Part shown: positions 9,763 through 41,948 of the stretch, piece after piece | Numbering within the stretch: the first letter of the stretch is position 1 | How the letters are laid out: each line of letters starts with the position of its first letter | DNA from: Streptomyces sp. NBC_00162 | Lineage (GTDB): Bacteria; Actinomycetota; Actinomycetes; Streptomycetales; Streptomycetaceae | Length of the DNA stretch: 64,000 nt | Reading direction: 5' to 3' | Assembly: GCF_024611995.1 (NCBI RefSeq) | Contig: NZ_CP102509.1 | Coordinates: forward strand, 3,658,001 to 3,722,000 | Program-made: the position numbers and the translations under genes | The notes under the pieces: generated by a model | What the model was told of the DNA's origin: nothing | Seen by the model: the letters and a program-made list of their open reading frames with translations, nothing else | The model's database searches: none

Positions 9763-9774
9763 CTACGCGCGTAG
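9763..9774. promoter_or_regulatory. Palindromic operator upstream of pnp
   Basis: CTACGCGCGTAG is a perfect 12-bp palindrome. A likely -10 element, TACGCT (9787-9792), lies 7 bases before the GTG start of pnp, so the palindrome covers the expected -35 region. The same sequence or a close variant precedes deoC, add, deoA, the nucleoside ABC operon and bmp. Confidence 0.8.
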
Positions 9775-9799
9775 GCAATGAGCGGCTACGCTCTTCCGC

Positions 9800-10606
9800 G
9801 TGAACGCATCTGTTACCGACCCCTTCGCCGCAGCCGACGCCGCAGCCGCCCGCCTCCGCGAGCTGACCGGCGCGGAATCCCACGATGTCGCCCTCGTCAT
9901 GGGCTCCGGATGGGCCCCCGCCGCAGAGGCGCTCGGCGCCCCCGAGGCCGAGTTCCCGGTCACCGAGCTGCCCGGCTTCCCGCCCCCGGCCGTCGAGGGC
10001 CACGGCGGCAAGATCCGCTCGTACAAGATCGGCGACAAGCGCGCGCTGCTCTTCCTCGGCCGGACCCACTACTACGAGGGCCGCGGCGTCGCCGCCGTCG
10101 CCCACGGCGTGCGCACCGCGGTCGCCGCGGGCTGCAAGACCGTCGTCCTCACCAACGGCTGTGGCGGCCTGCGCGAGGGCATGAAGCCCGGCCAGCCGGT
10201 CCTGATCAGCGACCACCTCAACCTGACGGCCACCTCGCCGATCGTCGGCGCGAACTTCGTGGACCTCACCGACCTGTACTCGCCGCGTCTGCGCGCGATG
10301 TGCAAGGAGATCGACGAGACCCTCGAAGAGGGCGTCTACGTTCAGTTCCCCGGCCCGCACTACGAGACCCCGGCCGAGATCAACATGATCCGCGTCATGG
10401 GCGCCGACCTGGTCGGCATGTCCACCGTGCTGGAGGCCATCGCCGCCCGTGAGGCCGGCGCCGAGGTGCTGGGCATCTCCCTGGTCACCAACCTGGCGGC
10501 GGGCATCTCCGGCGAGCCGCTGAACCACGAAGAGGTGCTCCAGGCCGGCCGTGACTCGGCCGCGCGCATGGGCAAGCTGCTGACCCAGGTCCTCGCCCGC
10601 ATCTGA
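9800..10606 (+). CDS. pnp: Purine-nucleoside phosphorylase
   Basis: The 268-residue cytoplasmic enzyme phosphorolyses (deoxy)inosine and (deoxy)guanosine to the free base and (deoxy)ribose-1-phosphate. Trimeric-PNP motifs are present: MGSGWAPAA (phosphate loop), [26 protein letters not shown], and [12 protein letters not shown] with downstream [12 protein letters not shown] 9800 has no Shine-Dalgarno but sits 7 bases after a -10-like TACGCT, so the transcript may be leaderless. It is 35 bases from the mutase gene, forming an operon that makes and isomerises pentose-1-phosphate. Confidence 0.93.
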
Positions 10607-10641
10607 GGCACCGGGCCCGTACGAGAGGTAAGGCGGAAGTA

Positions 10642-12288
10642 GTGCAGGAACAGGACGACCTGATCACCCGGGCGCAGGCCTGGCTGGCGGAGGACCCGGA
10701 CCCGGAGACGGCGGCCGAACTCGCCGCGCTCATCGAGGCGGGCGACACGGCGGAGCTCGCGGACCGCTTCGCCGGCACGCTCCAGTTCGGCACCGCCGGA
10801 CTGCGCGGCGAGCTGGGCGCGGGCCCGATGCGGATGAACCGCGGCGTGGTCATCCGGGCCGCGGCGGGCCTCGCGGCCTACCTGAAGGCCCAGGGCCACA
10901 CCGGCGGCCTGGTCGTCGTCGGCTACGACGCGCGCTACAAGTCGGCGGACTTCGCCCGCGACACCGCGGCCGTCATGACCGGCGCCGGACTGCGCGCGGC
11001 CGTCCTGCCCCGCCCGCTGCCGACGCCCGTCCTCGCGTACGCCATAAGGCACCTGGGCGCCGTCGCCGGCGTCGAGGTGACCGCGAGCCACAACCCTCCC
11101 CGGGACAACGGCTACAAGGTGTACCTCGGCGACGGCTCGCAGATCGTCTCCCCGGCGGACGCCGAGATCGCGGCGGAGATCGGCCGCATCGAGACGCTCG
11201 CCTCCGTACCCCGCCCGGCGGACGGCTGGCTGCAGCTCGACGAGGAGGTCCTGGAGGCCTACCTGGCGCGCACGGACGCGGTCCTGACCCCCGGGGGCCC
11301 CCGGGGCGTGCGGACCGTCTACACGGCCATGCACGGCGTCGGCAAGGACGTCGTCATGGCAGCCTTCGCCCGGCACGGCTTCCCGGAGCCGGTGCTCGTC
11401 GCCGAGCAGGCGGAGCCGGACCCGGCCTTCCCGACGGTGGCCTTCCCCAACCCGGAGGAGCCGGGCGCGATGGACCTGGCCTTCGCGAAGGCCGCCGAGG
11501 TCAACCCGGACATCGTGATCGCCAACGACCCGGACGCGGACCGCTGCGCGGTGGCCGTGCCCGCCGGGGACGGCTGGCGGATGCTGCGCGGCGACGAGGT
11601 CGGCGCGCTGCTGGCGGCCCACCTGGTCCACAAGGGCGCGCAGGGCGTCTTCGCGGAATCCATCGTCTCGTCCTCGCTCCTGGGCCGGATCGCGGAGGCG
11701 GCGGGCGTCGGCTACGAGGAGACCCTGACGGGCTTCAAGTGGATCGCCCGCGTACAGGGCCTGCGCTACGGCTACGAGGAGGCGCTCGGCTACTGCGTGG
11801 ACCCCGAGGGCGTCCGCGACAAGGACGGCGTCACGGCCGCCCTGCTGGTGGCGGAGCTGGCCTCGGAGCTCAAGGAGCAGGGCCGCACCCTGACCGACCT
11901 GCTGGACGACCTGGCGATGGCCCACGGCCTGCACGCCACCGACCAGTTGTCGGTCCGCGTCTCGGACCTGTCGGTCATCGCCTCGGCGATGGCCGCACTG
12001 CGGGCGGAGCCGCCGGTCTCGCTGGCGGGCCTGCAGGTCACCTCGGCGGAGGACCTGACCAAGGGCACGGAGTCCCTCCCGCCCACGGACGGCCTGCGGT
12101 ACTACCTGGACGGCGCCTACAAGGCCCGGGTGATCGTCCGCCCGTCGGGCACGGAGCCCAAGCTGAAGTGCTACCTGGAGGTCGTGGTCCCGGTGGCCGA
12201 GGCCTCCGACCTGGCCCCGGCCCGCGCGCGCGGCCAGGAGATCCTGGACGCGATCAAGAAGGACCTCGCGGCTGCGGCCGGCATCTAG
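10642..12288 (+). CDS. Phosphosugar mutase (phosphoglucomutase/phosphopentomutase family)
   Basis: This 548-residue alpha-D-phosphohexomutase has all four family loops: the phosphoserine loop TASHNPP (residues about 150-156), the metal loop NDPDADRCAV, the sugar loop EEALGYCVDP and the phosphate-binding loop RPSGTEPKLK. In this operon behind pnp the natural role is probably ribose-1-P/deoxyribose-1-P to the 5-phosphate (phosphopentomutase), feeding deoC and the pentose phosphate pathway. That specificity is inferred from context, and glucose or mannose phosphates are not excluded. Start GTG 10642 follows GGCGGAAG. Confidence 0.88.
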   Translation: MQEQDDLITRAQAWLAEDPDPETAAELAALIEAGDTAELADRFAGTLQFGTAGLRGELGAGPMRMNRGVVIRAAAGLAAYLKAQGHTGGLVVVGYDARYKSADFARDTAAVMTGAGLRAAVLPRPLPTPVLAYAIRHLGAVAGVEVTASHNPPRDNGYKVYLGDGSQIVSPADAEIAAEIGRIETLASVPRPADGWLQLDEEVLEAYLARTDAVLTPGGPRGVRTVYTAMHGVGKDVVMAAFARHGFPEPVLVAEQAEPDPAFPTVAFPNPEEPGAMDLAFAKAAEVNPDIVIANDPDADRCAVAVPAGDGWRMLRGDEVGALLAAHLVHKGAQGVFAESIVSSSLLGRIAEAAGVGYEETLTGFKWIARVQGLRYGYEEALGYCVDPEGVRDKDGVTAALLVAELASELKEQGRTLTDLLDDLAMAHGLHATDQLSVRVSDLSVIASAMAALRAEPPVSLAGLQVTSAEDLTKGTESLPPTDGLRYYLDGAYKARVIVRPSGTEPKLKCYLEVVVPVAEASDLAPARARGQEILDAIKKDLAAAAGI

Positions 12289-12304
12289 CCCGCCCCACCA
12301 GTTC

Positions 12305-12342
12305 GACGGCCCCCCGAGCCCCGTCCGGCCCGGGGGGCCGTC
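12305..12342. terminator. Hairpin terminator after the pnp-mutase operon
   Basis: A perfect 12-bp GC stem (12305-12316 with 12331-12342) lies 17 bases after the mutase stop, between convergent genes. No U-run follows, which is common for Streptomyces terminators. Confidence 0.7.
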
Positions 12343-12410
12343 GCCGTCCCGGGGCCGTTGCGCAGCGAAAGATGAACCCGGCGCGGCATCGTTCCGGCGG
12401 ACGGAGTCCG

Positions 12411-15191: not shown

Positions 15192-15271
15192 GGGGTCATT
15201 CTGTCCCATCGGCAGTCGGGAGTTCGACCGGCGGGGGCACGCGATCTCGCCGGGCCCCGGCGGAGGTGGCT

Positions 15272-15287
15272 GTGACAGGCCTGTGAC
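15272..15287. promoter_or_regulatory. AfsQ1 binding site between afsQ1 and sigQ
   Basis: GTGAC-AGGCCT-GTGAC matches exactly the GTnAC-N6-GTnAC direct repeat reported for S. coelicolor AfsQ1. It lies 98 bases upstream of the sigQ start and 80 bases from the afsQ1 start, as expected for activation of sigQ. Confidence 0.8.
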
Positions 15288-16214: not shown

Positions 16215-16850
16215 CTAGGCCGGGGTCACTGCCGCGCGGTGGCGGCCCGCCGCGGCGGCCGCCAGGCGGCCGAGGGCCTCGTCGCGGCCACAGGCGTGTG
16301 CCCCGAGGGCGGTGTGCCGGGCCACGATGCCCCGCTCGGCCCGCATCAGCCGGTACCCCCTGCGCAGCAGGAACAGCACCGACTTGCGGCCCTCGCGCAG
16401 ATCGCGCACCAGCCGGCGCCGGAACGTCGTCGAGGGGCGGCCCCGCAGGCAGATGGCATCGGCGAGCAGCCCCAGCTCCTGGCACCGGGCGACGATGTCG
16501 GCCGCGAAGATGCCCTCCGCGATGAACAGCGGCGTCCGGGAGATGTCCAGCGCCTCCGTCCCGGTCCGGGAGGACGTCGCGATGTCGTAGACGGGGACCT
16601 CCGTACGGCCCGCCGCGCACAGCTCCTCGATCGCCGCGACAGCGGTGTCCGCGTCCCAGGACAGCGGAGAGTCCCAGTCGATGTCCGAGCTCCCCTCGAC
16701 CAGCGGAAGGGTCGGGTCGTCCCCCTCCTTGTAGAAGTCGTCCAGGCGCAGCACGGGCAGGCCCGAGCGGGCCGCCAGCGAGGACTTGCCGGACCCCGAG
16801 GGCCCGGTCAGCAGCACGACGCGCGTAGGCAGGGGAGAAGAACAGCTCAC
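16215..16850 (-). CDS. Uridine kinase-like P-loop kinase
   Basis: This protein of about 211 residues has a Walker A loop GPSGSGKSSLA close to the N-terminus, then LRLDDFYKEGDDPT, typical of uridine kinases (ATP-dependent phosphorylation of uridine/cytidine to UMP/CMP). VPVYDIATSSRTG and FIAEGIFAADIV follow. GTG 16850 is chosen; 16919 adds a non-conserved N-terminus, and a start even nearer the P-loop is possible. A one-mismatch copy of the nucleoside-regulon palindrome lies inside the gene at 16817-16828. Salvage of pyrimidine nucleosides fits the other genes in the window. Confidence 0.78.
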   Translation of the reverse strand: MSCSSPLPTRVVLLTGPSGSGKSSLAARSGLPVLRLDDFYKEGDDPTLPLVEGSSDIDWDSPLSWDADTAVAAIEELCAAGRTEVPVYDIATSSRTGTEALDISRTPLFIAEGIFAADIVARCQELGLLADAICLRGRPSTTFRRRLVRDLREGRKSVLFLLRRGYRLMRAERGIVARHTALGAHACGRDEALGRLAAAAAGRHRAAVTPA

Positions 16851-17395: not shown

Positions 17396-18295
17396 CTAGT
17401 ACGAGGACCCGCCCGAGCCCAGCGAACCCGTGGGGTGCCAGACCGTCTTGGTCTCCAGGAACGCCGTCATGCGGTGCGTGCCCGGGTCGGCGGTCCAGTC
17501 GTCCACAGGCTGTGGACGAAGAACGCGCTTGAGGTTGTCCGCCGCCGCGATCTCCAGCTCCTTGGCCAGCGCCGTGCCGGCGCCCGCCAGGTCGATCGCG
17601 TTGACGTCCTGGTGGGACGCCAGGTGCGGGCCCATCTCGCCGGCCTTGCCGGACAGGATGTTGACCACGCCGCCGGGCAGGTCGGAGGTCGCCAGCACCT
17701 CGCCCAGGGAGAGGGCGGGCAGCGGGGACTTCTCCGAGGCGATCACGACGACGGTGTTGCCGGTGGCGATCACCGGGGCGACCACCGAGATCAGGCCCAG
17801 GAAGGACGAGTCCTGCGGGGCGACGACCGTGACGACGCCGGTCGGCTCGGGGGTGGAGAGGTTGAAGAACGGGCCCGCGACGGGGTTGGCCCCGCCGACG
17901 ATCTGGCCGATCTTGTCGGTCCAGCCCGCGTACCAGACCCAGCGGTCGATGGCCGCGTCCACGACCGCGCCGGCCTTGGACTTGGACAGGCCCTCGGCCT
18001 CGCCGACCTCGCGGACGAACTGGTCGCGGCGGCCCTCGAGCATCTCGGCGATGCGGTAGAGGATCTGCCCGCGGTTGTAGGCGGTGGCGCCGGACCAGCC
18101 GCCGAAGGCCTTGCGGGCGGCGACGACCGCGTCACGCGCGTCCTTGCGGGAGGACAGTGGTGCGTTGGCCAGCCACTTGCCCTTGGAGTCCGTCACCTCG
18201 TACACCCGGCCGCTCTCGGAGCGGGGGAACTTGCCCCCGACGTACAGCTTGTAGGTCTTGAAGACGCTCAGACGCGCCGTCGACGACTCAGACAT
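17396..18295 (-). CDS. Truncated aldehyde dehydrogenase paralogue lacking the catalytic domain
   Basis: At 299 residues this is only the first 60 percent of an aldehyde dehydrogenase. The NAD-binding half is recognisable (TPEPTGVVTVVAPQ about 148-161, VIATGNTVVVIASEKSPL about 176-192, LPGGVVNILSG). Then FTGS is replaced by DLAGAG, and the ELGGK glutamate, the GQxC nucleophile and the whole catalytic domain are missing. It ends in a distinct tail (ETKTVWHPTG) rather than a frameshift scar. ATG 18295 overlaps the end of the full-length ALDH gene by 8 bases, indicating translational coupling. It is probably a regulatory or structural partner rather than an enzyme. Confidence 0.85.
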   Translation of the reverse strand: MSESSTARLSVFKTYKLYVGGKFPRSESGRVYEVTDSKGKWLANAPLSSRKDARDAVVAARKAFGGWSGATAYNRGQILYRIAEMLEGRRDQFVREVGEAEGLSKSKAGAVVDAAIDRWVWYAGWTDKIGQIVGGANPVAGPFFNLSTPEPTGVVTVVAPQDSSFLGLISVVAPVIATGNTVVVIASEKSPLPALSLGEVLATSDLPGGVVNILSGKAGEMGPHLASHQDVNAIDLAGAGTALAKELEIAAADNLKRVLRPQPVDDWTADPGTHRMTAFLETKTVWHPTGSLGSGGSSY

Positions 18296-19724
18296 CGAGG
18301 TAACCCTCCAGGCCGTGGCGACCGCCTTCGCGGCCGAAGCCCGACTCCTTGTAGCCGCCGAAGGGCGAGGTCGGGTCGAACTTGTTGAACGTGTTGGCCC
18401 AGACGACACCGGCGCGGAGCTTGTTCGCGACCGCGAGGATCCGCGAGCCCTTCTCCGTCCAGATGCCCGCGGACAGGCCGTACTGGCTGTTGTTGGCCTT
18501 GGCGACGGCCTCGTCGGGCGTGCGGAAGGTCAGCACGGACAGCACCGGGCCGAAGATCTCGTCGCGAGCGACGGTGTGCGCCTGGGTGACGTTCGTGAAG
18601 AGCGTCGGGGCGAACCAGTAGCCGGCGGACGGCAGCTCACAGGCCGGGGACCAGCGCTCGGCACCCTCGGCCTCGCCGGTCTCCGCGAGCGCGGTGATCC
18701 GGGCGAGCTGCTCGGCGGAGTTGATCGCCCCGATGTCGGTGTTCTTGTCGAGCGGGTCGCCCAGGCGCAGCGTGGAGAGGCGGCGCTTGAGGGAGTCCAG
18801 CAGCTCGTCGTGGATCGACTCCTGGACCAGCAGGCGCGAGCCCGCGCAGCAGACCTGGCCCTGGTTGAAGAAGATGCCGTTGACGATGCCCTCGACGGCC
18901 TGGTCGATCGGGGCGTCGTCGAAGACGATGTTCGCGCCCTTGCCGCCCAGCTCCAGGGTGACCTTCTTGTCGGTCCCGGCGACGTGGCGGGCGATCTTCT
19001 TGCCCACGGCGGTCGAGCCGGTGAAGGCGACCTTGTTGACGTCCGGGTGCTCGACGAGGGCCGCGCCCGCGTCCCCGTACCCGGTGAGGATGTTGACGAC
19101 GCCCTTGGGCAGGCCCGCCTGGCGGCAGATGTCCGCGAAGAACAGCGCGGAGAGGGGGGTCGTCTCCGCCGGCTTCAGCACGACCGTGTTGCCGGTGGCG
19201 AGCGCCGGGGCGATCTTCCACGCGAGCATCAGGAGCGGGAAGTTCCACGGGATGACCTGGCCGGCGACGCCGAGCGGGCGCGGGTTGGCCCCGTAGCCCG
19301 CGTGGTCGAGCTTGTCGGCCCAGCCCGCGTAGTAGAAGAAGTGCGCGGCGACCAGCGGGAGGTCCGCGTCGCGGGTCTCCTTGATCGGCTTGCCGTTGTC
19401 CAGGGTCTCCAGGACGGCGAGCTCGCGGCTGCGCTCCTGGATGATCCGGGCGATGCGGAAGAGGTACTTGGCGCGCTCGGAGCCGGGCAGCGCGGACCAC
19501 TTCTCGAAGGCCTTGCGGGCGGCCTTCACGGCACGGTCCACATCGGCGGCGCCCGCCTGGGCGACCTCGGCCAGGACTTCCTCGGACGACGGGGAGACGG
19601 TCTTGAAGACCTTGCCGTCGGCGGCGTCGGTGAACTCGCCGTCGATGAAGAGCCCGTAGGAGGGGGCGATGTCGACGACCGAGCGGGACTCGGGAGCCGG
19701 TGCGTACTCGAAGAGGGATGCCAT
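18288..19724 (-). CDS. Aldehyde dehydrogenase
   Basis: This 478-residue NAD-dependent aldehyde dehydrogenase is complete: VIPWNFPLLM (158-167), FTGSTAVG (234-241), the general base Glu258 in LELGGKGAN and the nucleophile Cys292 in NQGQVCCAGS. It lies 5 bases after deoC on the same strand. DeoC splits deoxyribose-5-phosphate into glyceraldehyde-3-phosphate and acetaldehyde, so this enzyme most likely oxidises the toxic acetaldehyde. That substrate is inferred from the operon. Confidence 0.9.
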   Translation of the reverse strand: MASLFEYAPAPESRSVVDIAPSYGLFIDGEFTDAADGKVFKTVSPSSEEVLAEVAQAGAADVDRAVKAARKAFEKWSALPGSERAKYLFRIARIIQERSRELAVLETLDNGKPIKETRDADLPLVAAHFFYYAGWADKLDHAGYGANPRPLGVAGQVIPWNFPLLMLAWKIAPALATGNTVVLKPAETTPLSALFFADICRQAGLPKGVVNILTGYGDAGAALVEHPDVNKVAFTGSTAVGKKIARHVAGTDKKVTLELGGKGANIVFDDAPIDQAVEGIVNGIFFNQGQVCCAGSRLLVQESIHDELLDSLKRRLSTLRLGDPLDKNTDIGAINSAEQLARITALAETGEAEGAERWSPACELPSAGYWFAPTLFTNVTQAHTVARDEIFGPVLSVLTFRTPDEAVAKANNSQYGLSAGIWTEKGSRILAVANKLRAGVVWANTFNKFDPTSPFGGYKESGFGREGGRHGLEGYLDV

Positions 19725-19729: not shown

Positions 19730-20692
19730 TCAGTCCACCGTCACGTAGTCGGGACCGGAGTAACGGCCGGTGCTCAGCTTCTGGCGCTGCATCAACAGGT
19801 CGTTGAGCAGGCTGGAGGCGCCGAAGCGGAACCAGTGGTTGCTCAGCCAGTCCTCGCCCACGGTCTCGTTGACCAGGACCAGGAACTTGATCGCGTCCTT
19901 GGTGGTCCGGATGCCGCCGGCCGGCTTCACGCCGATCTGGATTCCAGTCTGCGCCTTGAAGTCGCGGACGGCTTCGAGCATGAGCAGCGTGTTGGCCGGG
20001 GTGGCGTTGACGCCCACCTTGCCGGTCGACGTCTTGATGAAGTCGGCGCCCGCGAGCATGCCGATCCAGGAGGCGCGGCGGATGTTGTCGTACGTCGACA
20101 GCTCGCCGGTCTCGAAGATGACCTTGAGGCGGGCCGCGCTGCCGTCGGGGCGGACGCAGGCCTCCTTGATGGCCTTGATCAGCTCGTACGTGTCGAGGTA
20201 GCGGCCGGCGAGGAAGGCGCCACGGTCGATGACCATGTCGATCTCGTCGGCGCCGGCGGCGACGGCGTCACGGGTGTCGGCGAGCTTGACGGGCAGCGCG
20301 GCGCGGCCGGCCGGGAAGGCGGTCGCGACGGAGGCCACCTTGACGTCGGCGCCGTTGAGGGCGGCCTTCGCGGTGGCCACCATGTCGGGGTACACGCAGA
20401 CCGCGGCGGTCATCGGCGTCGTACGGTCGGTCGGATCGGGGTTGACGGCCTTGGCGGAGAGCGCCCGGACCTTGCCCGGGGTGTCCGCGCCTTCCAGCGT
20501 CGTCAGGTCGATCATCGAGATGGCCAGATCGATGGCGTACGCCTTGGCCGTCGTCTTGATCGAGCGGGTGCCGAGGGCGGCCGCGCGGGCCTCCAGTCCG
20601 ACTGCGTCGACGCCGGGCAGCCCGTGCAGGAAGCGGCGCAGCGCACTGTCGGACGTCGTCACGTCAGCGAATGCGGTGAGGGTGGTGGGCAT
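19730..20692 (-). CDS. deoC: Deoxyribose-phosphate aldolase
   Basis: This class I aldolase of about 320 residues cleaves 2-deoxyribose-5-phosphate to acetaldehyde and glyceraldehyde-3-phosphate. The Schiff-base lysine is in FIKTSTGK and the second active-site lysine in GVKPAGGIRTTKDA. ATG 20692 (MPTTLTAFADV) matches the usual N-terminus. A GTG three codons earlier (20701) lies 7 bases after a -10-like TAGATA and could be the start of a leaderless mRNA. It is longer than E. coli DeoC (about 259 residues), as is common in actinobacteria. A perfect palindromic operator overlaps the promoter. Confidence 0.92.
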   Translation of the reverse strand: MPTTLTAFADVTTSDSALRRFLHGLPGVDAVGLEARAAALGTRSIKTTAKAYAIDLAISMIDLTTLEGADTPGKVRALSAKAVNPDPTDRTTPMTAAVCVYPDMVATAKAALNGADVKVASVATAFPAGRAALPVKLADTRDAVAAGADEIDMVIDRGAFLAGRYLDTYELIKAIKEACVRPDGSAARLKVIFETGELSTYDNIRRASWIGMLAGADFIKTSTGKVGVNATPANTLLMLEAVRDFKAQTGIQIGVKPAGGIRTTKDAIKFLVLVNETVGEDWLSNHWFRFGASSLLNDLLMQRQKLSTGRYSGPDYVTVD

Positions 20693-20711: not shown

Positions 20712-20723
20712 CTACGCGCGTAG
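20712..20723. promoter_or_regulatory. Palindromic operator upstream of deoC
   Basis: CTACGCGCGTAG lies 19 bases before ATG 20692. On the minus strand its final TAG forms the start of a -10-like TAGATA (20714-20709), so a bound repressor would block RNA polymerase directly. Confidence 0.82.
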
Positions 20724-25300: not shown

Positions 25301-26449
25301 CTAAGCCGAGACAGAACCGCTGGTGGAAGCAGTCTGCTGGAACAGCCACTCCGACTTCAGCTCCGCATAACCAGGCTTGATGACCTCGTTGATCATGGCC
25401 AGTCGTTCATCGAAAGGAATGAACGCGGACTTCATCGCATTGACGGTGAACCACTGCATGTCCTCCAGCGTGTAGCCGAAGGTGTCCACCAGGTGCTCGA
25501 ACTCGCGGCTCATGCTGGTGCCGCTCATCAGGCGGTTGTCGGTGTTGACCGTGAGCCTGAAGTGCAGCTTCCGCAGCAGGCCGATCGGGTGCTCGGCGTA
25601 CGAGGCGGCCGCGGCCGTCTGGAGGTTCGACGTCGGGCACATCTCCAGGGGGATGCGCTTGTCCCGGACGTACGAGGCCAGGCGGCCCAGCGTCACCGAG
25701 CCGTCGGCGGCGACCTCGATGTCGTCGATGATCTTCACGCCGTGACCGAGGCGGTCGGCGCCGCACCACTGCAGGGCCTGCCAGATCGACGGCAGGCCGA
25801 AGGCCTCGCCCGCGTGGATCGTGAAGTGGTTGTTCTCGCGCTTGAGGTACTCGAAGGCGTCGAGGTGGCGGGTGGGAGGGAACCCGGCCTCGGCACCGGC
25901 GATGTCGAAGCCGACCACGCCGTTGTCGCGGTAGCGGTTGGCCAGCTCCGCGATCTCCAGCGCGCGGGCGGCGTGCCGCATCGCGGTCAGCAGGGCGCCG
26001 ATGCGGATGCGGTGGCCGTTGGCCTTCGCACGCCGCTCGCCCTCGCGGAAGCCGTCGTTCACGGCCTCGACGACCTCTTCGAGGGTCAGGCCGGCTTCCA
26101 GGTGCTGCTCGGGGGCGTAGCGGATCTCGGCGTACACGACGCCGTCCTCGGCCAGGTCCTCGGCGCACTCGGCGGCGACCCGGAAGAGGGCCTCCTTCGT
26201 CTGCATGACCGCGCAGGTGTGCGCGAAGGTCTCCAGGTAGCGCGGGAGGGAGCCGGAGTCGGCGGCTTCCCGGAACCAGATGCCGAGCTTGTCGGCGTCG
26301 GTCTCGGGGAGGCTCTCGTAGCCGGCCTCGCGGGCCAGCTCGATGATGGTCCCGGGGCGCAGTCCACCGTCGAGGTGATCGTGCAGGAGCACCTTCGGGG
26401 AGCGGCGGATCTGATCCGGGGTCGGCAGGTTGGGGGTCTCGCTCGTCAT
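25301..26449 (-). CDS. add: Adenosine deaminase
   Basis: The 382-residue metal-dependent hydrolase converts (deoxy)adenosine to (deoxy)inosine, which pnp can then phosphorolyse. The zinc-binding HDHLDG lies at 23-28; HAGEAFG carries the catalytic Glu region; LGHGV and [10 protein letters not shown] carry the remaining ligands. ATG 26449 lies 6 bases after a -10-like TAGAGT, suggesting a leaderless transcript. A perfect CTACGCGCGTAG lies 16 bases upstream. Confidence 0.93.
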
Positions 26450-26465: not shown

Positions 26466-26477
26466 CTACGCGCGTAG
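26466..26477. promoter_or_regulatory. Palindromic operator upstream of add
   Basis: A perfect CTACGCGCGTAG lies 16 bases before the add start and 4 bases upstream of the likely -10 element TAGAGT (minus strand 26461-26456). Occupancy would cover the promoter spacer. Confidence 0.82.
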
Positions 26478-26562: not shown

Positions 26563-27285
26563 ATGGCACAGCATGCGCCGCCGGCGCGCGGGGCCCGCCT
26601 GGGGCGGGCAGCCGGCGCGAACGGCTTGGGGTCGACGGTCAGTGGTGTGGTGCTCCTTCTTCCCGGAGCGTCCAGATTCTCCCCCGGTCCGCTGCGTCCG
26701 CTCGGGCGGGCGCTGGCCCGGGCGGGCGGGGCGGAGGGGCTGGTCGCGCACACCGTGATCCACGGTGGGGACGCCTCCCGCGAGGAGCAGGCGGGGTGGG
26801 CGGCGGACGAGGCGGTGCGGCGGTACGGGGACGTGCCCGTGTGCCTGGCCGGCTTCGGTGCGGGAGGCCTGGCCGCGCTGCGGGCGGCGGGCCACGACGC
26901 CGTCAACTCGGTGGTGTCGCTGGCCCCTTGCCTGGGAGAAGCGGTGGTGGCGGACTCGCCTGAACCGGTGAAACAGCTGTCGGGGCGGCAGGTCCTGATC
27001 GTGCACGGCACGAACGACGCGCACAGCGACCCGGAGGCATCGTTTCTGCTGGCGGCGCGGGCCAAGAAGGCGAATCGTTCCACGTGCCGGTTCGAGGTGC
27101 ACTCGGACGGTCACGGGCTGCGCGAGCACCAGCCGGAAGTCGTCGCACTGGCCGTGGACTTCGTCCTCGGCGCGGTGTGCTCGGGGCGGTACTCGCGGCC
27201 GGTGACGGACGCGCTGGCCGCTCCCCCGCCGCTGGGTCTGCGGATGCCGCTGGCATCGGGGTTCGGGCGCTCGCTCCGGCGGTGA
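26563..27285 (+). CDS. Alpha/beta-hydrolase fold protein with altered nucleophile
   Basis: This 240-residue protein has a hydrolase-like core: LLLPGASRFSPG near the oxyanion loop, acid residue Asp152 in HGTND and His184 in SDGHGL. The nucleophile elbow reads AGFGAGG (97-101), with Gly99 where Ser, Cys or Asp is expected. It may therefore be non-catalytic or use another residue. It is divergent from add and 65 bases from the cupin gene. Confidence 0.75.
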   Translation: MAQHAPPARGARLGRAAGANGLGSTVSGVVLLLPGASRFSPGPLRPLGRALARAGGAEGLVAHTVIHGGDASREEQAGWAADEAVRRYGDVPVCLAGFGAGGLAALRAAGHDAVNSVVSLAPCLGEAVVADSPEPVKQLSGRQVLIVHGTNDAHSDPEASFLLAARAKKANRSTCRFEVHSDGHGLREHQPEVVALAVDFVLGAVCSGRYSRPVTDALAAPPPLGLRMPLASGFGRSLRR

Positions 27286-34776: not shown

Positions 34777-36054
34777 TCAGGCGATGCGATCCAGGACGAT
34801 CGGGGTGGCGGAGAAGACCGTGCCCGCCGGGGCGACGTCGTACGAGCCCTCCAGGGAGGCCAGGGCGTAGTCGAACTTCTCCGGGGTGTCCGTGTGCAGG
34901 GTCATCAGCGGCTGGCCCGCGGTGACCGTGTCGCCCGGCTTCGCGTGGAGCTCGATGCCCGCGCCCGCCTGGACCGGGTCCTCCTTGCGGGCACGGCCCG
35001 CGCCCAGGCGCCAGGCGCCGACGCCCACCGCGTACGCGTCGAGGCGGGTCAGGACGCCCGAGGCCGAGGCGGTGACCACGTGCTGCTCGCGGGCCACGGG
35101 CAGGGCCGCGTCCGGGTCGCCGCCCTGGGCCGCGATCATCCGGCGCCAGTGGTCCATGGCGGAGCCGTCGGCCAGGGCCTTCGCCGGGTCGGCGTCCTTG
35201 ATGCCCGCCGCGTCCAGCATCTCCTTGGCCAGGGCGATGGTCAGCTCGACGACGTCAGCGGGCCCGCCGCCGGCCAGGACCTCGACCGACTCGCGGACCT
35301 CCAGGGCGTTGCCAGCGGTCAGGCCGAGCGGGGTGGACATGTCCGTCAGGAGCGCGACGGTCTTGACGCCCGAGTCCGTGCCCAGGCCCACCATGGTCCG
35401 CGCCAGCTCGCGCGCGTCCTCGATGTTCTTCATGAAGGCGCCGCTGCCGACCTTCACGTCGAGGACGAGGGAGCCCGTACCCTCGGCGATCTTCTTCGAC
35501 ATGATCGAGGAGGCGATCAGCGGGATGGCCTCGACCGTGCCCGTCACGTCGCGCAGGGCGTAGAGCTTCTTGTCCGCCGGGGCCAGGCCGTCGCCCGCCG
35601 CGCAGATGACCGCGCCGGTGGTGTCCAGGACGTGCAGCATCTCCTCGTTGGACAGCAGCGCGCGCCAGCCGGGGATGGACTCCAGCTTGTCGAGGGTGCC
35701 GCCGGTGTGGCCGAGCCCGCGGCCGGACAGCTGCGGCACGGCCGCGCCGCACGCGGCGACGAGCGGGGCCAGCGGCAGCGTGATCTTGTCGCCTACTCCG
35801 CCGGTGGAGTGCTTGTCGGCGGTGGGGCGGGAGAGGGAGTCGAAGTTCATGCGCTCGCCGGAGGCGATCATCGCGGCGGTCCAGCGGGCGATCTCGGCCC
35901 GGTTCATCCCGTTCAGCAGGATGGCCATCGCCAGAGCCGACATCTGCTCGTCGGCGACGACACCGCGGGTGTACGCGTCGATGACCCAGTCGATCTGCTC
36001 GGGGCTCAGCTCGCCGCGGTCCCGCTTGGTCCGGATGACGGAGATGACGTCCAT
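34777..36054 (-). CDS. deoA: Thymidine (pyrimidine-nucleoside) phosphorylase
   Basis: The 425-residue enzyme phosphorolyses thymidine, deoxyuridine or uridine to base and (deoxy)ribose-1-phosphate. Motifs include the phosphate-binding SRPTADKHSTGGVGDK (about 79-94), the loop LSGRGLGHTGGTLDKLESIP and a C-terminal alpha/beta domain for catalytic closure. ATG 36054 has AAGGAAG upstream. An operator lies 13 bases before the start and a hairpin separates it from cdd, so it can be transcribed on its own. It feeds deoxyribose-1-P to the mutase and deoC. Confidence 0.93.
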   Translation of the reverse strand: MDVISVIRTKRDRGELSPEQIDWVIDAYTRGVVADEQMSALAMAILLNGMNRAEIARWTAAMIASGERMNFDSLSRPTADKHSTGGVGDKITLPLAPLVAACGAAVPQLSGRGLGHTGGTLDKLESIPGWRALLSNEEMLHVLDTTGAVICAAGDGLAPADKKLYALRDVTGTVEAIPLIASSIMSKKIAEGTGSLVLDVKVGSGAFMKNIEDARELARTMVGLGTDSGVKTVALLTDMSTPLGLTAGNALEVRESVEVLAGGGPADVVELTIALAKEMLDAAGIKDADPAKALADGSAMDHWRRMIAAQGGDPDAALPVAREQHVVTASASGVLTRLDAYAVGVGAWRLGAGRARKEDPVQAGAGIELHAKPGDTVTAGQPLMTLHTDTPEKFDYALASLEGSYDVAPAGTVFSATPIVLDRIA

Positions 36055-36067: not shown

Positions 36068-36079
36068 CTACGCGCATAG
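36068..36079. promoter_or_regulatory. Operator variant upstream of deoA
   Basis: CTACGCGCATAG differs from the consensus CTACGCGCGTAG at one position. It lies between the cdd-deoA hairpin and the deoA ribosome binding site. Confidence 0.75.
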
Positions 36080-36100
36080 AGAGAGGGGTGAGAGGAATTG

Positions 36101-36138: not shown

Positions 36139-36144
36139 GCACGG

Positions 36145-36552
36145 CTATCTCAGGTGGTCGGGCCCGAAGGCCTGGGGCAGCATCGCCGCCAGCGGAAGGA
36201 TCCCGTCCGGGGTCTCCACCAGCAGCTCCGGTCCGCCGAACTCGAACAGCAGCTGGCGGCAGCGCCCGCACGGGACGAGGATCTCGCCCTTGCCGTCCAC
36301 ACACGTGAAGTGCGTGAGGCGGCCGCCTCCCGTGGCCTGGAGCGAGGAGACCAGCCCGCACTCGGCGCACAGGCCCAGCCCGTAGCTCGCGTTCTCCACG
36401 TTGCAGCCGGTCACGACCCGGCCGTCGTCCACGCGGGCCGCGACCCCGACCGGGAAGCCCGAGTACGGCGCGTACGCGTGGGTCATGGCTTCCCGGGCCG
36501 CGACCCGGAGGGCTTCCCAGTCCACGGCCTGGGCTGCCGGAGCCGAGGTCAC
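36145..36552 (-). CDS. cdd: Cytidine deaminase
   Basis: This 135-residue tetrameric-type cytidine deaminase converts (deoxy)cytidine to (deoxy)uridine. The proton-shuttle Glu64 and first zinc Cys62 are in LCAEC; the other zinc ligands Cys95 and Cys98 are in PCGRC. CNVENASYGL binds substrate. Its start overlaps the end of the upstream permease gene by four bases, so it is the last gene of the transporter operon, supplying uridine for deoA. Confidence 0.93.
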   Translation of the reverse strand: MTSAPAAQAVDWEALRVAAREAMTHAYAPYSGFPVGVAARVDDGRVVTGCNVENASYGLGLCAECGLVSSLQATGGGRLTHFTCVDGKGEILVPCGRCRQLLFEFGGPELLVETPDGILPLAAMLPQAFGPDHLR

Positions 36553-37814
36553 TTGCCCTGGCCCTTGCGGTACGGCAGACCGTCCGCCTTGGGCATCCGC
36601 AGCCGCTGCGCCGACAGCGCGAGCACCAGCAGGGTGGTCACGTACGGAGCCGCGTCCACGAACTGGCTGGGCACCGAGTCGGTGAGCGCGTACCAGAGGA
36701 ACAGCAGCGCGGCGCAGACCGCCGAGATGCCGGCCTGGAGGTACTTCTTCTTGTACAGCTGCCAGGCGCAGACCAGCACCAGCAGGATCGCGATCAGCAG
36801 CAGCATCGCGTGGACGTTCGTGGCGCCACCGCGCAGCTTGAGACTGTCGATGAAGCCGAACAGGCCCGCGCCCAGCGCCATGCCGCCCGGCATCCAGTTG
36901 CCGAAGATCATGGCGGCGAGACCGATATAGCCGCGGCCGCCGGTCTGGCCCTCCTGGTAGATCGGGCTGGCGACCTCGGACAGGTACACGCCGCCGAGGC
37001 CCGCCAGGGCGCCCGAGACGATCACGGCGATGTACTTGTACTTGTAGACGTTGACGCCGAGGGACTCCGCGGCGGTGGGGTTCTCACCGCAGGAGCGCAG
37101 CCGCAGACCGAAAGAGGTCCGCCACAGCACCCACCAGGTGCCCGGGATCAGCAGCAGGGCGACGATCGTCAGCAGCGACAGCTCGGTGACCAGGCCGCCG
37201 ATGACGCCGGCGAGGTCCGAGACGAAGAACCAGTGCTTGGCCTGGAGATCGGCCATCCAGTCGGACAACCCCGGCACGGTGATCTTGTAGATCGGCTCGA
37301 CCTGCGGCGACTGCTTCGAGGAGCCGCCCGGCGCGTCGGCGAAGGTGAAGTTCGACAGGTACTGGGTGAAGCCCAGCGCCAGGATGTTGATGGCCACACC
37401 GGAGACGATGTGGTTGACGTTGAACGTGACGGTCATGATCGCGTGCAGCAGGCCGCCGGCGGCGCCGCCGGCGATGCCGACGAGCACACCGGTCCACGGA
37501 CCCCACTGGTAGCCGGCCCAGGCCCCGAACCAGGTGCCGAGGATCATCATGCCCTCGAGGCCGATGTTGACGACGCCCGCGCGCTCGGCCCACAGGCCGC
37601 CGAGGCCGGCGAGGCCGATCGGGACGGCGAGGGAGAGGGCACCGGAGACCTGGCCGATGGAGGTCAGGTCGTTCGCGCCGCTGATCAGGCGGACCAGCGA
37701 GAGCAGCGCAAGGCCGCCCGCGATGATCAGCAGGATCCAGGGCAGGGTGAGCTTCTTGCGGCCGCCGGACTTCTTGGGGGCGGCAGCCGTCGCGGAGACA
37801 GTGCTGGTGCTCAC
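36549..37814 (-). CDS. Nucleoside ABC transporter permease
   Basis: This 421-residue permease of the BMP/Rbs (branched-chain amino acid-like) type has ten or more hydrophobic segments, including GLEGMMILGTWFGAW and GENPTAAESLGVNVYKYKY, typical of NupQ/YufQ-like subunits. It overlaps both neighbours by four bases (cdd and the second permease), indicating translational coupling. With the ATPase and the BMP lipoprotein it should import purine/pyrimidine nucleosides. Confidence 0.9.
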   Translation of the reverse strand: MSTSTVSATAAAPKKSGGRKKLTLPWILLIIAGGLALLSLVRLISGANDLTSIGQVSGALSLAVPIGLAGLGGLWAERAGVVNIGLEGMMILGTWFGAWAGYQWGPWTGVLVGIAGGAAGGLLHAIMTVTFNVNHIVSGVAINILALGFTQYLSNFTFADAPGGSSKQSPQVEPIYKITVPGLSDWMADLQAKHWFFVSDLAGVIGGLVTELSLLTIVALLLIPGTWWVLWRTSFGLRLRSCGENPTAAESLGVNVYKYKYIAVIVSGALAGLGGVYLSEVASPIYQEGQTGGRGYIGLAAMIFGNWMPGGMALGAGLFGFIDSLKLRGGATNVHAMLLLIAILLVLVCAWQLYKKKYLQAGISAVCAALLFLWYALTDSVPSQFVDAAPYVTTLLVLALSAQRLRMPKADGLPYRKGQGK

Positions 37815-38926
37815 GCCGCGACCTCCTTGTCGGTCTTGATGGCGTGCCCGGCGGCGAGCTCCTCGCCGACCTTCTGCTGCTGGCGCCGGATGCCGTAGCG
37901 GCGGACCAGTTCGTACGAGACGACGACCGCGATCACGATCAGGCCCTTCATGATCGTGCCGATCTCCTTCGCGTACCCGGCCTGGTCGAGCGAGGCCGAG
38001 GCCTTGTCGATGAAGGCCATCAGGAACGCGGCGAAGAGCATGCCGACCGGGCTGTTGCGGCCGAGCAGCGCGATGGTGATGCCGGTGAAGCCGACGCCGA
38101 CCGGGAAGGCCAGGTTGTAGGTGTGCGTCTCGCCCAGCAGCTGCGGCATGCCGGCGAGACCCGCGACCGCGCCGGAGATGAGCATCGAGGTGATGATCAT
38201 CTTCTTGGCGTCGACGCCGGAGGCCTGGGCGGCGGACTCACTGGCGCCGGTGGCGCGCAGGTCGAAGCCGAAACGGGTCCGGTTGAGCGTGAACCAGTAG
38301 ACGATGCCGAGGGCGAAGGCCACGAAGGTGAAGCCGTAGAGCTCCAGACCGTCGCCGAGGGACACCGCCGGGAACCAGCCGGACTCGGCGATGTCGCCGG
38401 TCGTCAGGTCGTTGGAGCCCTCGATCTGGACGCCGAGGTTCTTCGTCAGCATCAGCCAGGCGATCAGGCTGGTCGCGATGGCGTTCAGCATGATCGTGGA
38501 GACGACCTCGCTCACCCCGCGCTTGGCCTTGAGGACACCGGCGATGCCGGCCCAGAAGGAACCGACGAGCATCGCCACGAGGATGATCACCAGCAGGTGC
38601 AGCGGGCCCGGCAGGGTCACGGCCGCACCGACCACGGCGGAGAGCATCGCCGCGAGGCGGTACTGACCGTCGACGCCGATGTTGAAGAGGTTCATCCGGA
38701 AGCCGATGGCCACGGCCAGGGCCGCGAGGTAGTACGTACCGGCCTGGTTCACGATGAGGACCTGGACGTCCTCATAGCCGGCGTTCTCCACCATGAGGCG
38801 CAGCGGCTCGATCGGGTCGATGCCCGTCGCCGCCAGCACGATCATGGTCAGCAGGAAGGCGCTGACCAGGGCGAGTGCGGGTCCGGCGAAGCCGAGGAGC
38901 AGCCGGTCCTTGTCGAATTGCTTCAT
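37811..38926 (-). CDS. Nucleoside ABC transporter permease
   Basis: This 371-residue permease (MKQFDKDRLLLGFAGPALAL) is of the NupP/YufP type with about nine membrane helices. Conserved segments include NLFNIGVDGQYRLAAM, RGVSEVVSTIMLN and ATGASESAAQASGVDAKK (cytoplasmic loop contacting the ATPase). ATG 38926 overlaps the stop codon of the ATPase gene, so the long frame beyond it is not used. Confidence 0.9.
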   Translation of the reverse strand: MKQFDKDRLLLGFAGPALALVSAFLLTMIVLAATGIDPIEPLRLMVENAGYEDVQVLIVNQAGTYYLAALAVAIGFRMNLFNIGVDGQYRLAAMLSAVVGAAVTLPGPLHLLVIILVAMLVGSFWAGIAGVLKAKRGVSEVVSTIMLNAIATSLIAWLMLTKNLGVQIEGSNDLTTGDIAESGWFPAVSLGDGLELYGFTFVAFALGIVYWFTLNRTRFGFDLRATGASESAAQASGVDAKKMIITSMLISGAVAGLAGMPQLLGETHTYNLAFPVGVGFTGITIALLGRNSPVGMLFAAFLMAFIDKASASLDQAGYAKEIGTIMKGLIVIAVVVSYELVRRYGIRRQQQKVGEELAAGHAIKTDKEVAA

Positions 38927-40590
38927 CGGGCCTCGTCCTCCGGTGCATCGGTACCGGGCGCGGTACCGGCGGCGGAGTGGTTGTCGGTTGCTTCCAGGTG
39001 CCCGGAGGCGGCGCCCGTCATGGCGGTGCCGAGCTCCTCCGGGGTGACGGTCGCGGGGTCGGCGTCCGCGACCAGGCGGCCGCGGTAGATCACGCGCAGG
39101 GTGTCGGACAGGCCGATGAGCTCGTCCAGGTCCGCGGAGATGAGCAGGACGGCCAGGCCCTCGTGGCGGGCCTTGCGGATCGCGTCCCAGATCTGCGCCT
39201 GCGCACCGACGTCCACACCGCGGGTGGGGTGGGCGGCGATGAGGAACTTCGGGTTGTGGCTCATCTCGCGGCCGACGATCAGCTTCTGCTGGTTGCCGCC
39301 GGAGAGCGAGGCCGCGGTGACCTCGATGCCGGGCGTGCGGACGTCGTACTCGCGCACGATCCGCTCGGTGTCCTTGCGGGCCGCCTTCGTGTCGAGGATG
39401 CCGCGCTTGGAGTTGGGCGCCTCGGTGACGTGGCCGAGGATGCGGTTCTCCCACAGCGGGGACTCGAGCAGCAGGCCGTGCCGGTGGCGGTCCTCGGGGA
39501 TGTAGCCGATGCCGCCCTCGCGGCGCTCGCGCACCGGAACCTTCGTGATGTCCCGGCCGTCCAGCGTGATCACGCCCGTGTCGGCGGGGTTCATGCCCAT
39601 GAGGGCTTCGATCAGCTCGGTCTGGCCGTTGCCCTCGACACCGGCGATGCCGAGGATCTCGCCCTTGTGGATGGTGAAGGTGACGTCGTCCAGCAGGAGA
39701 CGGCCGGCTTCGACGTGCTCGTGGAGGGTGGAGTCCTCCGGGGCCTGGCGCACCAGGATCTCCGGCTCGGCGATGACGGAGTCGTCCGCGGTGCGGGTCA
39801 GGCCCGCCACCTTCAGTATCGGGACGTCCGTCACGGTCGACTCGCGGGTCTCCGGCGAGGGCAGCTCCGCGCCGACCATCAGCTCGGCGAGCTGCTTGGT
39901 GGTGGCGGTCTTCGGGTCGGCGGTGCCGACCGTGGTGCCGCGCCGGATGACGGTGATGTCGTCGGCGACCTTCAGCACCTCGCCCAGCTTGTGCGAGATG
40001 AAGATGACGGTCAGGCCCTCGGCCTTGAGCTCGCGCAGGTTGTCGAAGAGTGCGTCCACCTCCTGCGGCACGAGCACGGCGGTCGGCTCGTCGAGGATGA
40101 GGATCCTGGCGCCGCGGTAGAGGACCTTGAGGATCTCCACGCGCTGGCGGTCTGCGACACCGAGGTCCTCGACCAGGGCGTCGGGACGCACGCCGAGGCC
40201 GTACGCGTCCGAGATCTCCTTGATCTTCTTACGGGCCTTGGCGCCGATGCCGTACAACTTCTCGCCGCCGAGAACCACGTTCTCCAGGACGGTGAGGTTG
40301 TCGGCGAGCATGAAGTGCTGGTGCACCATGCCGATGCCGCGGGCGATGGCGTCGCCGGGGCTGTGGAAGGAGACCTGCTCCCCGTCGATGGCGATGGTGC
40401 CCTCGTCCGGCTTCTGCATGCCGTAGAGGATCTTCATCAGGGTCGACTTGCCGGCGCCGTTCTCGCCGATCAAGGCATGGACCGTGCCCTTGCGGACGGT
40501 GATCGCGATGTCCTTGTTGGCGACGACGCCGGGGAAGCGCTTGGTGATGCCGTGCAGTTCTACGGCGGGGGGCGGGCTGGACGCGTTGAT
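38923..40590 (-). CDS. Nucleoside ABC transporter ATPase, two nucleotide-binding domains, unusual start codon
   Basis: This protein of about 555 residues has two ABC domains. The first has Walker A GENGAGKST and Walker B LILDEPTAVL. The second is degenerate at Walker A (GVEGNGQTELI) but keeps the signature LSGGNQQKL. This is the Rbs/Nup architecture. The start is a problem: between the operator (40674-40685) and the conserved first strand (VELHGITKRFPGVVANKD) there is no in-frame ATG, GTG or TTG. AAGGAGAG (40604-40597) is followed in frame by GTC (40593) and ATC (40590). I place the start at ATC 40590 provisionally. Confidence 0.85.
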   Translation of the reverse strand: MNASSPPPAVELHGITKRFPGVVANKDIAITVRKGTVHALIGENGAGKSTLMKILYGMQKPDEGTIAIDGEQVSFHSPGDAIARGIGMVHQHFMLADNLTVLENVVLGGEKLYGIGAKARKKIKEISDAYGLGVRPDALVEDLGVADRQRVEILKVLYRGARILILDEPTAVLVPQEVDALFDNLRELKAEGLTVIFISHKLGEVLKVADDITVIRRGTTVGTADPKTATTKQLAELMVGAELPSPETRESTVTDVPILKVAGLTRTADDSVIAEPEILVRQAPEDSTLHEHVEAGRLLLDDVTFTIHKGEILGIAGVEGNGQTELIEALMGMNPADTGVITLDGRDITKVPVRERREGGIGYIPEDRHRHGLLLESPLWENRILGHVTEAPNSKRGILDTKAARKDTERIVREYDVRTPGIEVTAASLSGGNQQKLIVGREMSHNPKFLIAAHPTRGVDVGAQAQIWDAIRKARHEGLAVLLISADLDELIGLSDTLRVIYRGRLVADADPATVTPEELGTAMTGAASGHLEATDNHSAAGTAPGTDAPEDEAR

Positions 40591-40673
40591 GACGCACTCT
40601 CCTTGGCGCGGAAGGAGCGGAAGGCAGGGGGGGGGACAGGGCGGGGAGTGAAAGTATCGCGTCCACGATGCTT

Positions 40674-40685
40674 CTACGCGCGTAG
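40674..40685. promoter_or_regulatory. Palindromic operator upstream of the nucleoside ABC transporter operon
   Basis: A perfect CTACGCGCGTAG lies 83 bases before the provisional ATPase start. A possible -10-like TACTTT follows downstream on the minus strand. Confidence 0.8.
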
Positions 40686-40754
40686 CACTGTCGGAAGTGA
40701 AAACTTGCGGCCACACAGGCCGCTCGATCACTGGTGTGAATTCAGAACGCGGCT

Positions 40755-40793
40755 CGGGGCCCGGGAGCGATAGAGACCGCTTCCCGGACCCCG
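40755..40793 (-). terminator. Hairpin after bmp
   Basis: CGGGGCCCGGGA (from 40755) pairs imperfectly with TCCCGGACCCCG (to 40793), 30 bases past the bmp stop on the minus strand. There is no clear U-run. It probably limits read-through so that bmp and the ABC operon can be transcribed separately. Confidence 0.5.
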
Positions 40794-40822
40794 GAGACCG
40801 CGACTGAGTGTCAGAGACGACC

Positions 40823-41875
40823 TTACGGGGCGGTCTTGACGTTGATCTTCTTGGCGATGATTTCGGCCTTGGCCTTCTCCACCGCGGCGATGACGTCGGT
40901 CATCTCCTTGTACTTCGGGTTGGAGTCGGCCAGGCCGACGCCGTCCTTGTCCAGGCCGTAACGGATCTCACCGGTGGTCGGCTTGCCGTCCTTGACCGAC
41001 TTGATCAGGTTGAAGACCGAGTCCTCGACGTCCTTGGTGACCGAGGTCAGGATGGCGTCCTTGTACTTCGACAGACCGGCCTGGTTGTACTGGTCGGAGT
41101 CGACGCCGATGGCCCACTTGCCCTTGGCCGAGGCGGCCTCGATGGCACCGGAGCCGGCCAGACCGGCGGCGGCGTAGACCACGTCGGCGCCCGCGTCGAG
41201 CTGACCCTGCGCGGCGGCCTTGCCGAGGTCGGGCTTGGCGAAACCGTCGAAGTTCGGCGGCTGGGTCAGGTACTGGGACAGCACCTTGGCGTTCGGGTTG
41301 GTGTCCTTGACGCCCTGCGTGAAGCCCGCCTCGAACTTCTTGATCAGCGGAACCTCGACACCGCCGATGAAGCCGACCGTGCCGGTCTTGGACACCTTGG
41401 CGGCGGCGACGCCGGCCAGGTAGGAGCCCTGCTCCTCGTTGAAGACGAGGTTGGCGATGTTCGGGCCGGTCACCGAGGTGTCGTCGATGATGCCGAACGT
41501 GGTGTTCGGGAACTTCGGCGCGACCTTCTTGATGGCCGGGGCATAGGCGAAACCGACGCCGATGACCGGGTTGTTGCCCTTGCGGGCCAGCTCGGTGAGG
41601 CGCTGGACCTTGTCGGCCTCGCCCTCGCCGTCGGTGGGCTCCGCCTCGGCGCCCTTGATCTTCAGGTCCGACTCGGCCTTCTGCAGGCCGGCGTAAGCGG
41701 CGTCGTTGAACGACTGGTCGCCGCGGCCACCGATGTCGTACGCGATGGCGGCGCTGGCGTCCTTCGAGTCCGAAGATCCGGTGTCCGACGAGTTCTTACC
41801 GCCACAGGCGGTGGCCGAGAGGGCCAGCGCAGCGGACGCGAGGCCCACGGTGGCGATCCTGGTGATCCGGCGCAA
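40823..41875 (-). CDS. BMP-family nucleoside-binding lipoprotein
   Basis: This 350-residue substrate-binding protein has a lipoprotein signal ending LSATACGG. The BMP (PnrA/Med) fold motifs are AYDIGGRGDQSFNDAAYAGL, NLVFNEEQGSYLAGVAA and VGFIGGVEVPLIKKFEAGF. These proteins bind purine nucleosides for ABC import. It starts at TTG 41875 with AAGGAG upstream. It precedes the ATPase-permease genes but is separated from them by a hairpin and a second operator, which would allow higher expression of the binding protein. Confidence 0.92.
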   Translation of the reverse strand: MRRITRIATVGLASAALALSATACGGKNSSDTGSSDSKDASAAIAYDIGGRGDQSFNDAAYAGLQKAESDLKIKGAEAEPTDGEGEADKVQRLTELARKGNNPVIGVGFAYAPAIKKVAPKFPNTTFGIIDDTSVTGPNIANLVFNEEQGSYLAGVAAAKVSKTGTVGFIGGVEVPLIKKFEAGFTQGVKDTNPNAKVLSQYLTQPPNFDGFAKPDLGKAAAQGQLDAGADVVYAAAGLAGSGAIEAASAKGKWAIGVDSDQYNQAGLSKYKDAILTSVTKDVEDSVFNLIKSVKDGKPTTGEIRYGLDKDGVGLADSNPKYKEMTDVIAAVEKAKAEIIAKKINVKTAP

Positions 41876-41936
41876 GGGGAGGCTCCTTCAAAACCTGACC
41901 GAAGCGCCACGACCGGCGCTGGTTTCGCGGCGATCG

Positions 41937-41948
41937 TAACGCGCGTAG
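41937..41948. promoter_or_regulatory. Operator variant upstream of bmp
   Basis: TAACGCGCGTAG matches CTACGCGCGTAG at 10 of 12 positions; the outer two bases of one half differ. It lies 61 bases before the bmp start. Confidence 0.6.

Follow-up and report, generated by a model that had tools for sequence, protein, structure and literature searches.

A short palindromic operator shared by nucleoside and nucleobase scavenging genes across Streptomycetaceae, with a DeoR-family protein as the candidate repressor

Introduction

In Escherichia coli, the DeoR regulon consists of deoCABD, nupG and tsx, and deoxyribose-5-phosphate is its inducer. Promoters of nucleoside transport and catabolism share sites in the E. 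coli CytR regulon, whose regulator is of the LacI family, and in the PurR regulons of Bacillus subtilis and E. coli a single regulator controls both purine synthesis and the transport of nucleobases. Here, a stretch of 64,000 nt from Streptomyces sp. NBC_00162 (the window; the whole genome is 9.02 Mb) was analyzed, in which a 12-bp perfect palindrome, CTACGCGCGTAG, precedes nucleoside genes, and it was evaluated as the operator of a nucleoside and nucleobase scavenging regulon.

Similar to the E. coli DeoR regulon, deoC, deoA, a purine nucleoside phosphorylase and a predicted nucleoside transporter are found under one palindromic operator here, and the candidate regulator belongs to the same family. 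However, the operator sequence is different, the promoters are many and dispersed, and the gene set is wider, as it also takes in add, bmp, a 5′-nucleotidase, an NCS2 permease, purS and pyrimidine degradation. The PurR regulons are likened by gene content only; they are not known to include catabolic deoxyribose genes and their regulators are of other protein families. CytR differs in being of the LacI family, whereas a DeoR-type binder is favored here. NupR of Bacillus thuringiensis, a Gram-positive nucleoside-transport regulator that PMC9430930 assigns to the GntR/HutC family, is set apart from the DeoR-type candidate by family only. In a search confined to papers, no description of this operator or of a Streptomyces nucleoside regulon was recognized; the exact 12-mer also occurs in PMC8063756 and PMC8510090, which by their titles deal with DNA structure and with GapR. 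The kind of system is known, while the operator, the breadth of its gene set and its near-invariance across the family appear to be new.

Results

Exact Copies of the Operator in This Genome Are Confined to the Window

The original prediction, made from the window alone, had placed six operator sites before nucleoside genes, and all six were recovered at its coordinates and mismatch levels, with four exact sites, one mismatch at deoA and two at bmp (Table 1). Besides these six, the sole copy in the window at ≤2 mismatches was at 16817, inside udk, as also claimed. Across the 9.02 Mb genome four exact copies of CTACGCGCGTAG were present, every one inside the window, while an order-3 Markov model of the window gave expectations of 0.003 per 64 kb and about 0.46 per genome. 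Further, the window holds 37 different perfect palindromes of 12 bp, and CTACGCGCGTAG was the most frequent of them, with four copies vs. three for the next two. The udk near-match (16817–16828) was rejected as an operator; it is coding and lies just past the likely start, and no copy at ≤1 mismatch was found in seven loci with udk.

The Operator Is Conserved at Orthologous Promoters

Relatives were represented by named loci around deoA, with the best 80 out of 591 being used, from which matches below 45% identity and genes with <250 bp upstream were dropped; Streptomyces toxytricini was the nearest named relative by deoA (97%) among these best 80 of 591, own-genome records possibly being left out. 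The add site was exact in 57/58 relatives, and the hydrolase-like gene divergent from add had the common site exact in 48/57. Upstream of bmp, one fixed variant, CTACGCGCGTTA on the coding strand, was found in all 75 relatives, and the site of the ATP-binding cassette (ABC) transporter operon, assayed at its ATPase gene, was kept in 69/76 (47 exact and 22 with one mismatch). For pnp and deoC, 27 further loci were used, 10 of them from four genomes chosen for exact copies and the rest chosen by their DeoR gene. The pnp site was present in 16/16 loci (11 exact, four with one mismatch and one with two), and the deoC site in 11/11 (six exact, five with one mismatch).

The flanks of the 12-bp core were nearly uninformative in 126 add and ABC rows, except for a T or G immediately before the core. 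Other promoters of the neighborhood mostly had 3–6 mismatches, two being reached by cdd in 4/79 and by an M20 hydrolase gene in 1/67 relatives. The reversed pattern, used as a control, mostly had 3–5 mismatches, and reached two in 14/77 at one permease gene and in 1–3 loci at six others. These results demonstrate that the element is retained beyond its flanks at the orthologous promoters of add, bmp, the ABC operon, pnp and deoC, as the original prediction required of a regulon, deoA being the exception with a site kept in a minority of relatives. A LuxR gene at 28819 and a cupin gene were rejected as targets, since just 4 and 2 of the 80 loci, respectively, passed the filters for them.

Conserved Sites Are Also Found Far From the Cluster

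Among the 13 one-mismatch copies in the genome, conservation was checked for deoA, udk and four with nucleoside-like neighbors. These four distal targets, picked by their neighbors, were then each compared in 30 Streptomyces loci, own included. Upstream of a secreted 5′-nucleotidase gene the site had one mismatch in 30/30 loci, with the variant CTACGCGCGTTG in 29/30, and upstream of an NCS2 (Xan_ur_permease) nucleobase permease gene it also had one mismatch in 30/30, with the variant CTACGCGCGGAG in 26/30. The purS site was kept in 30/30 (29 with one mismatch and one with two), and that of a carbon-nitrogen hydrolase gene near dihydropyrimidinase in 27/30 (26 and one, respectively). Separately, purS was seen to be preceded by an exact core in one relative. 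In contrast, 40 shuffled palindromes reached one mismatch in 0–0.3% of tests. The distal genes thus tend to retain a site variant of their own. The best NCBIfam model for the carbon-nitrogen hydrolase, N-carbamoylputrescine amidase, was below cut-off, and from its dihydropyrimidinase neighbor the enzyme is read as a beta-ureidopropionase.

Another occurrence was found in eight loci selected for holding an exact copy (L118, L119, L120, L124, L125, L226, L228, L229), where the exact core lies in codons 3–6 (MTATRV) of a second adenosine deaminase gene and forces the rare valine codon GTA (18/636 valine codons in 19 window genes). A PucR-family-looking gene adjoins pyrimidine genes in one relative, but was not seen in the own genome.

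The same element is found before several separately transcribed, functionally linked genes. One common operator for nucleoside genes has strong support, since its sites are retained at orthologous promoters, whereas most other promoters of the neighborhood stay at 3–6 mismatches. The regulon had also been described as held in one neighborhood; that holds for the exact copies, which cluster there, but not for the conserved one-mismatch sites, which are about 0.4–1.6 Mb distant from the cluster.

The Operator Is Widespread in Streptomycetaceae

Genomes were drawn from Streptomyces, the family, the order and the class, and these draws overlap. Exact copies were present in 61/61 Streptomyces genomes (own included), with 2–6 copies each vs. 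0–3 for the reversed pattern. Among 22 genomes from 16 further genera of Streptomycetaceae, taken from 51 non-Streptomyces ones drawn, 21 had at least one exact copy, and in the single family genome without any (G312) the copy before pnp had two mismatches and that before deoC had one. In the order-wide draw, exact copies were found in 104/104 Streptomyces and in 3/15 genomes of other families, with one copy each, two of which were intragenic in inosine monophosphate (IMP) dehydrogenase; in the class-wide draw, they were found in 22/22 Streptomyces and 10/224 others. At the exact copies of 7 of these 10 (G168, G219 and G299 excluded; L222 and L223 without usable gene calls) no nucleoside gene was recognized, and in G146 an adenosine-deaminase-like match lay >10 kb away from two of its three exact copies.

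In three loci of other Streptomycetaceae, L121 (1471), L126 (1499) and L127 (1456), exact copies stood 17–51 bp before a gene for a HAD-type hydrolase or for secreted He_PIG-domain or similar proteins, and these genes are possible further targets.

Operator Position and Published Expression Data

The distance from the site end to the nearest TANNNT box was −2 bp at bmp, 1 bp at deoC, 4 bp at add, 12 bp at pnp and 17 bp at the ABC operon, while no TANNNT box was found at the deoA site in the same geometry search. In Streptomyces lividans secreting a foreign protein, transcripts per million rose together, from 5 to 64 for SCO4917 (pnp), from 7 to 69 for SCO4914 (deoC) and from 11 to 49 for SCO4901 (add), according to Table 3 of PMC6302529, which is restricted to genes of known function and in which the other targets are not named. 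Further, PMC3293853 reports the DeoC protein to be lower in an argR mutant.

A DeoR-Family Gene Beside the Cluster Is the Candidate Regulator

A gene close to pnp encodes a DeoR-family protein, which scored 53.4 bits with Pfam HTH_DeoR (gathering 21) and 166 bits with DeoRC (gathering 31.8). It ends 2.3 kb outside the interval covered by the original prediction, which had named no regulator. The gene was present in 61/61 Streptomycetaceae genomes with 77–100% identity, and was 2.4 kb from pnp in the window and 2.2–6.3 kb in 15/15 loci holding both, while no ortholog was found in 15 sister-family genomes (best identity 46%). Positions 2–60 of its helix-turn-helix region were invariant at 56/59 positions in 56 loci (53 genomes, 17 genera); in neighboring regulators, with domain limits set by eye, 25/62 (LysR) and 39/102 (CseB) DNA-binding-domain positions were invariant. 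In a PDB search, the sole match of the DeoR-family protein was the E. coli deoxyribose operon repressor. The LysR gene at 30114, divergent from an MFS gene, was rejected; the gene is conserved, but its DNA-binding domain is variable.

By family and gene order, SCO4920 of Streptomyces coelicolor would be the counterpart of this gene, and PMC4848846 places SCO4920 among glucose-responsive regulators. The region upstream of the DeoR gene (7428–7592) carries a block of its own, conserved in many family members, which ends GTTACTGTCAGTTTCGTG at the start codon and is without the palindrome. In 20 genomes outside the family, DeoR homologs with 47–67% identity and a similar recognition helix were found, and the ABC genes neighboring the two that were annotated look sugar-type. 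GATCGG/CGATC-like repeated words were seen by eye upstream of outside homologs in L098, L100, L101 and L104, and might be the operator of those homologs.

Discussion

A Streptomycetaceae-wide nucleoside and nucleobase scavenging regulon under this operator, repressed most likely by the DeoR-family protein with a phosphopentose as effector, is slightly favored as the reading of these data. A dimeric repressor would bind the 12-bp core, which overlaps or abuts the −10/−35 region in most promoters, and would block transcription; a product of nucleoside breakdown would release it. The effector may be a phosphopentose, namely deoxyribose-5-phosphate, ribose-5-phosphate or phosphoribosyl pyrophosphate (PRPP), which is the weakest of these proposals. 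Judging from gene content, nucleosides would be imported by the ABC transporter, deaminated by the add and cdd products, and converted by pnp and deoA phosphorolysis to pentose-1-phosphates, which the mutase encoded behind pnp would isomerize, while DeoC would split deoxyribose-5-phosphate and the resulting acetaldehyde would be removed by the two aldehyde dehydrogenases encoded behind deoC. As the pathway of purS uses up PRPP, this gene may come under the same control.

Several observations weigh against this proposal, and part of them bear on rival explanations. At ≤3 mismatches the window has 38 matches vs. a shuffle mean of 50 (sd 6.5) and is not enriched; the genome-wide scan suggested with the original prediction, which found exact copies only in the window, gave 13 one-mismatch copies vs. 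about 22 expected, and at ≤1 mismatch the reversed pattern had 29 copies vs. 17 for the motif. These counts, together with exact copies that are intragenic in other genomes, such as those in IMP dehydrogenase, would fit matches arising by chance or coding bias, but the expectation of only 0.003 exact copies in the window and the retention of the site at orthologous promoters (57/58, 75/75, 30/30) while flanks vary refute that explanation and leave it a negligible probability. The signal of the motif is in its exactness, promoter position and conservation, and counts of weak matches are uninformative. The deoA site, present at ≤2 mismatches in just 32/79 relatives, is lineage-specific, and purS is unexpected among the targets of a catabolic repressor. 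The presence of purS alongside catabolic genes could fit a starvation activator binding the site, and the site-to-start distances of the distal genes vary widely. However, at bmp, deoC and add the sites overlap or nearly touch predicted −10-like boxes, and the site within codons 3–6 of the second adenosine deaminase also speaks against an activator, which is improbable; as the sites mostly sit against −10-like boxes, repression is clearly the favored sign.

The operator and its regulon may also be real with another binder, a conserved LacI, GntR or PurR-like regulator encoded elsewhere and sensing a purine or pyrimidine, DeoR being a mere neighbor with a developmental role; this is a serious alternative that falls somewhat short of an even chance. 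It would accord with the absence of an operator at the deoR promoter, where the best copies had 3–5 mismatches in 17 loci and autoregulation found no support, and with the DeoR homologs outside the family, since none of their 20 regions held a copy at ≤1 mismatch (two-mismatch copies were in 8/20) and two adjoin the apparent sugar-type ABC genes. In PMC3224704, SCO4920 is in a network module with the developmental gene bldN, and having purS and a nucleobase permease among the targets points to a base or a nucleotide as the signal; further, the regulators compared were those of the neighborhood rather than of the whole genome. Also, the DeoR protein scored 73.3 bits with the E. coli DeoR equivalog (NCBIfam PRK10681) against a cut-off of 244, and the deoC promoter appears as WblC-repressed in a listing in PMC7157823, therefore other control of it exists. 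In contrast, DeoR is the only regulator of the neighborhood with a near-invariant DNA-binding domain, its gene is linked to pnp, and gene and motif match in their presence in Streptomycetaceae and absence from the sister families. Based on these sequence comparisons, the DeoR-family protein is somewhat more likely than not the binder of the operator.

A wider proposal, in which a single pentose-phosphate-sensing DeoR-family repressor acts by way of the nearly invariant 12-bp operator on every stage from extracellular nucleotides and the secreted 5′-nucleotidase, via uptake of nucleosides and nucleobases, phosphorolysis and deamination, and breakdown of deoxyribose and pyrimidines, up to purS of purine synthesis, is tentative and rather doubtful. 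If it were true, one switch would unite what E. coli divides among DeoR, CytR and PurR. As Streptomyces develops, part of its mycelium is lysed, and scavenging from the lysing mycelium could then be coupled to development. Purine salvage is treated as a source for the Streptomyces ppGpp and c-di-GMP signals in a review (PMC6627660). The finding offers a short operator, about 10 target units and a named candidate for the repressor, and the compact operator, with its graded series of natural variants, would be useful for engineering.

Genes and Other Features of the Window

The features are collected in Table 1. The phosphosugar mutase encoded behind pnp is possibly a phosphopentomutase, and both aldehyde dehydrogenase-family genes probably belong to the deoC operon. 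The open frame of deoC extends to 20776, and the start was set at the ATG at 20692. For the ABC transporter, a nucleoside substrate is predicted from the neighborhood, as its nearest NCBIfam models are below cut-off and the binding protein is Bmp/PnrA-like.

Table 1. Operator sites and genes of the window (positions are those of the window).
Feature	Position	Strand	Details
DeoR-family regulator, candidate repressor	6474..7427	-	Pfam HTH_DeoR and DeoRC above gathering scores
pnp operator	9763..9774		exact; TACGCT box 12 bp on, GTG start 26 bp on
pnp, purine-nucleoside phosphorylase	9800..10606	+	NCBIfam TIGR01698 above cut-off
phosphosugar mutase behind pnp	10642..12288	+	PGM_PMM domains; no NCBIfam model above cut-off
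two aldehyde dehydrogenase-family genes directly behind deoC	17396..19724	-	same order in relatives read
deoC, deoxyribose-phosphate aldolase	19730..20692	-	NCBIfam TIGR00126 above cut-off
deoC operator	20712..20723		exact; TATGCT box 1 bp on
add, adenosine deaminase	25301..26449	-	NCBIfam NF006847 above cut-off
add operator	26466..26477		exact; TAGAGT box 4 bp on, ATG 17 bp on
deoA, thymidine phosphorylase	34777..36054	-	NCBIfam NF004490 above cut-off
deoA-proximal site	36068..36079		one mismatch; 14 bp before ATG, in gap behind cdd; lineage-specific
cdd, cytidine deaminase, between permease genes and deoA	36145..36552	-	NCBIfam NF004064 above cut-off
ABC transporter, ATPase and two permeases	36549..40600	-	nearest NCBIfam models below cut-off; ATPase start uncertain
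ABC-transporter operon operator	40674..40685		exact
bmp, PnrA-like substrate-binding lipoprotein	40823..41875	-	Pfam Bmp, 201 bits
bmp operator	41937..41948		two mismatches; overlaps TACGAT box

The second aldehyde dehydrogenase-family gene (17396–18409), which follows a full-length one, matched just the first half or so of the profiles, and it recurs in the relatives read. The gene at 26563–27285, divergent from add and having the common operator, had no Pfam or NCBIfam match and looks alpha/beta-hydrolase-like by eye. Downstream of the nucleoside cluster, a DUF6716 putative glycosyltransferase gene and a polysialyltransferase-family gene (46421–47770 and 48672–50216) lie close together.

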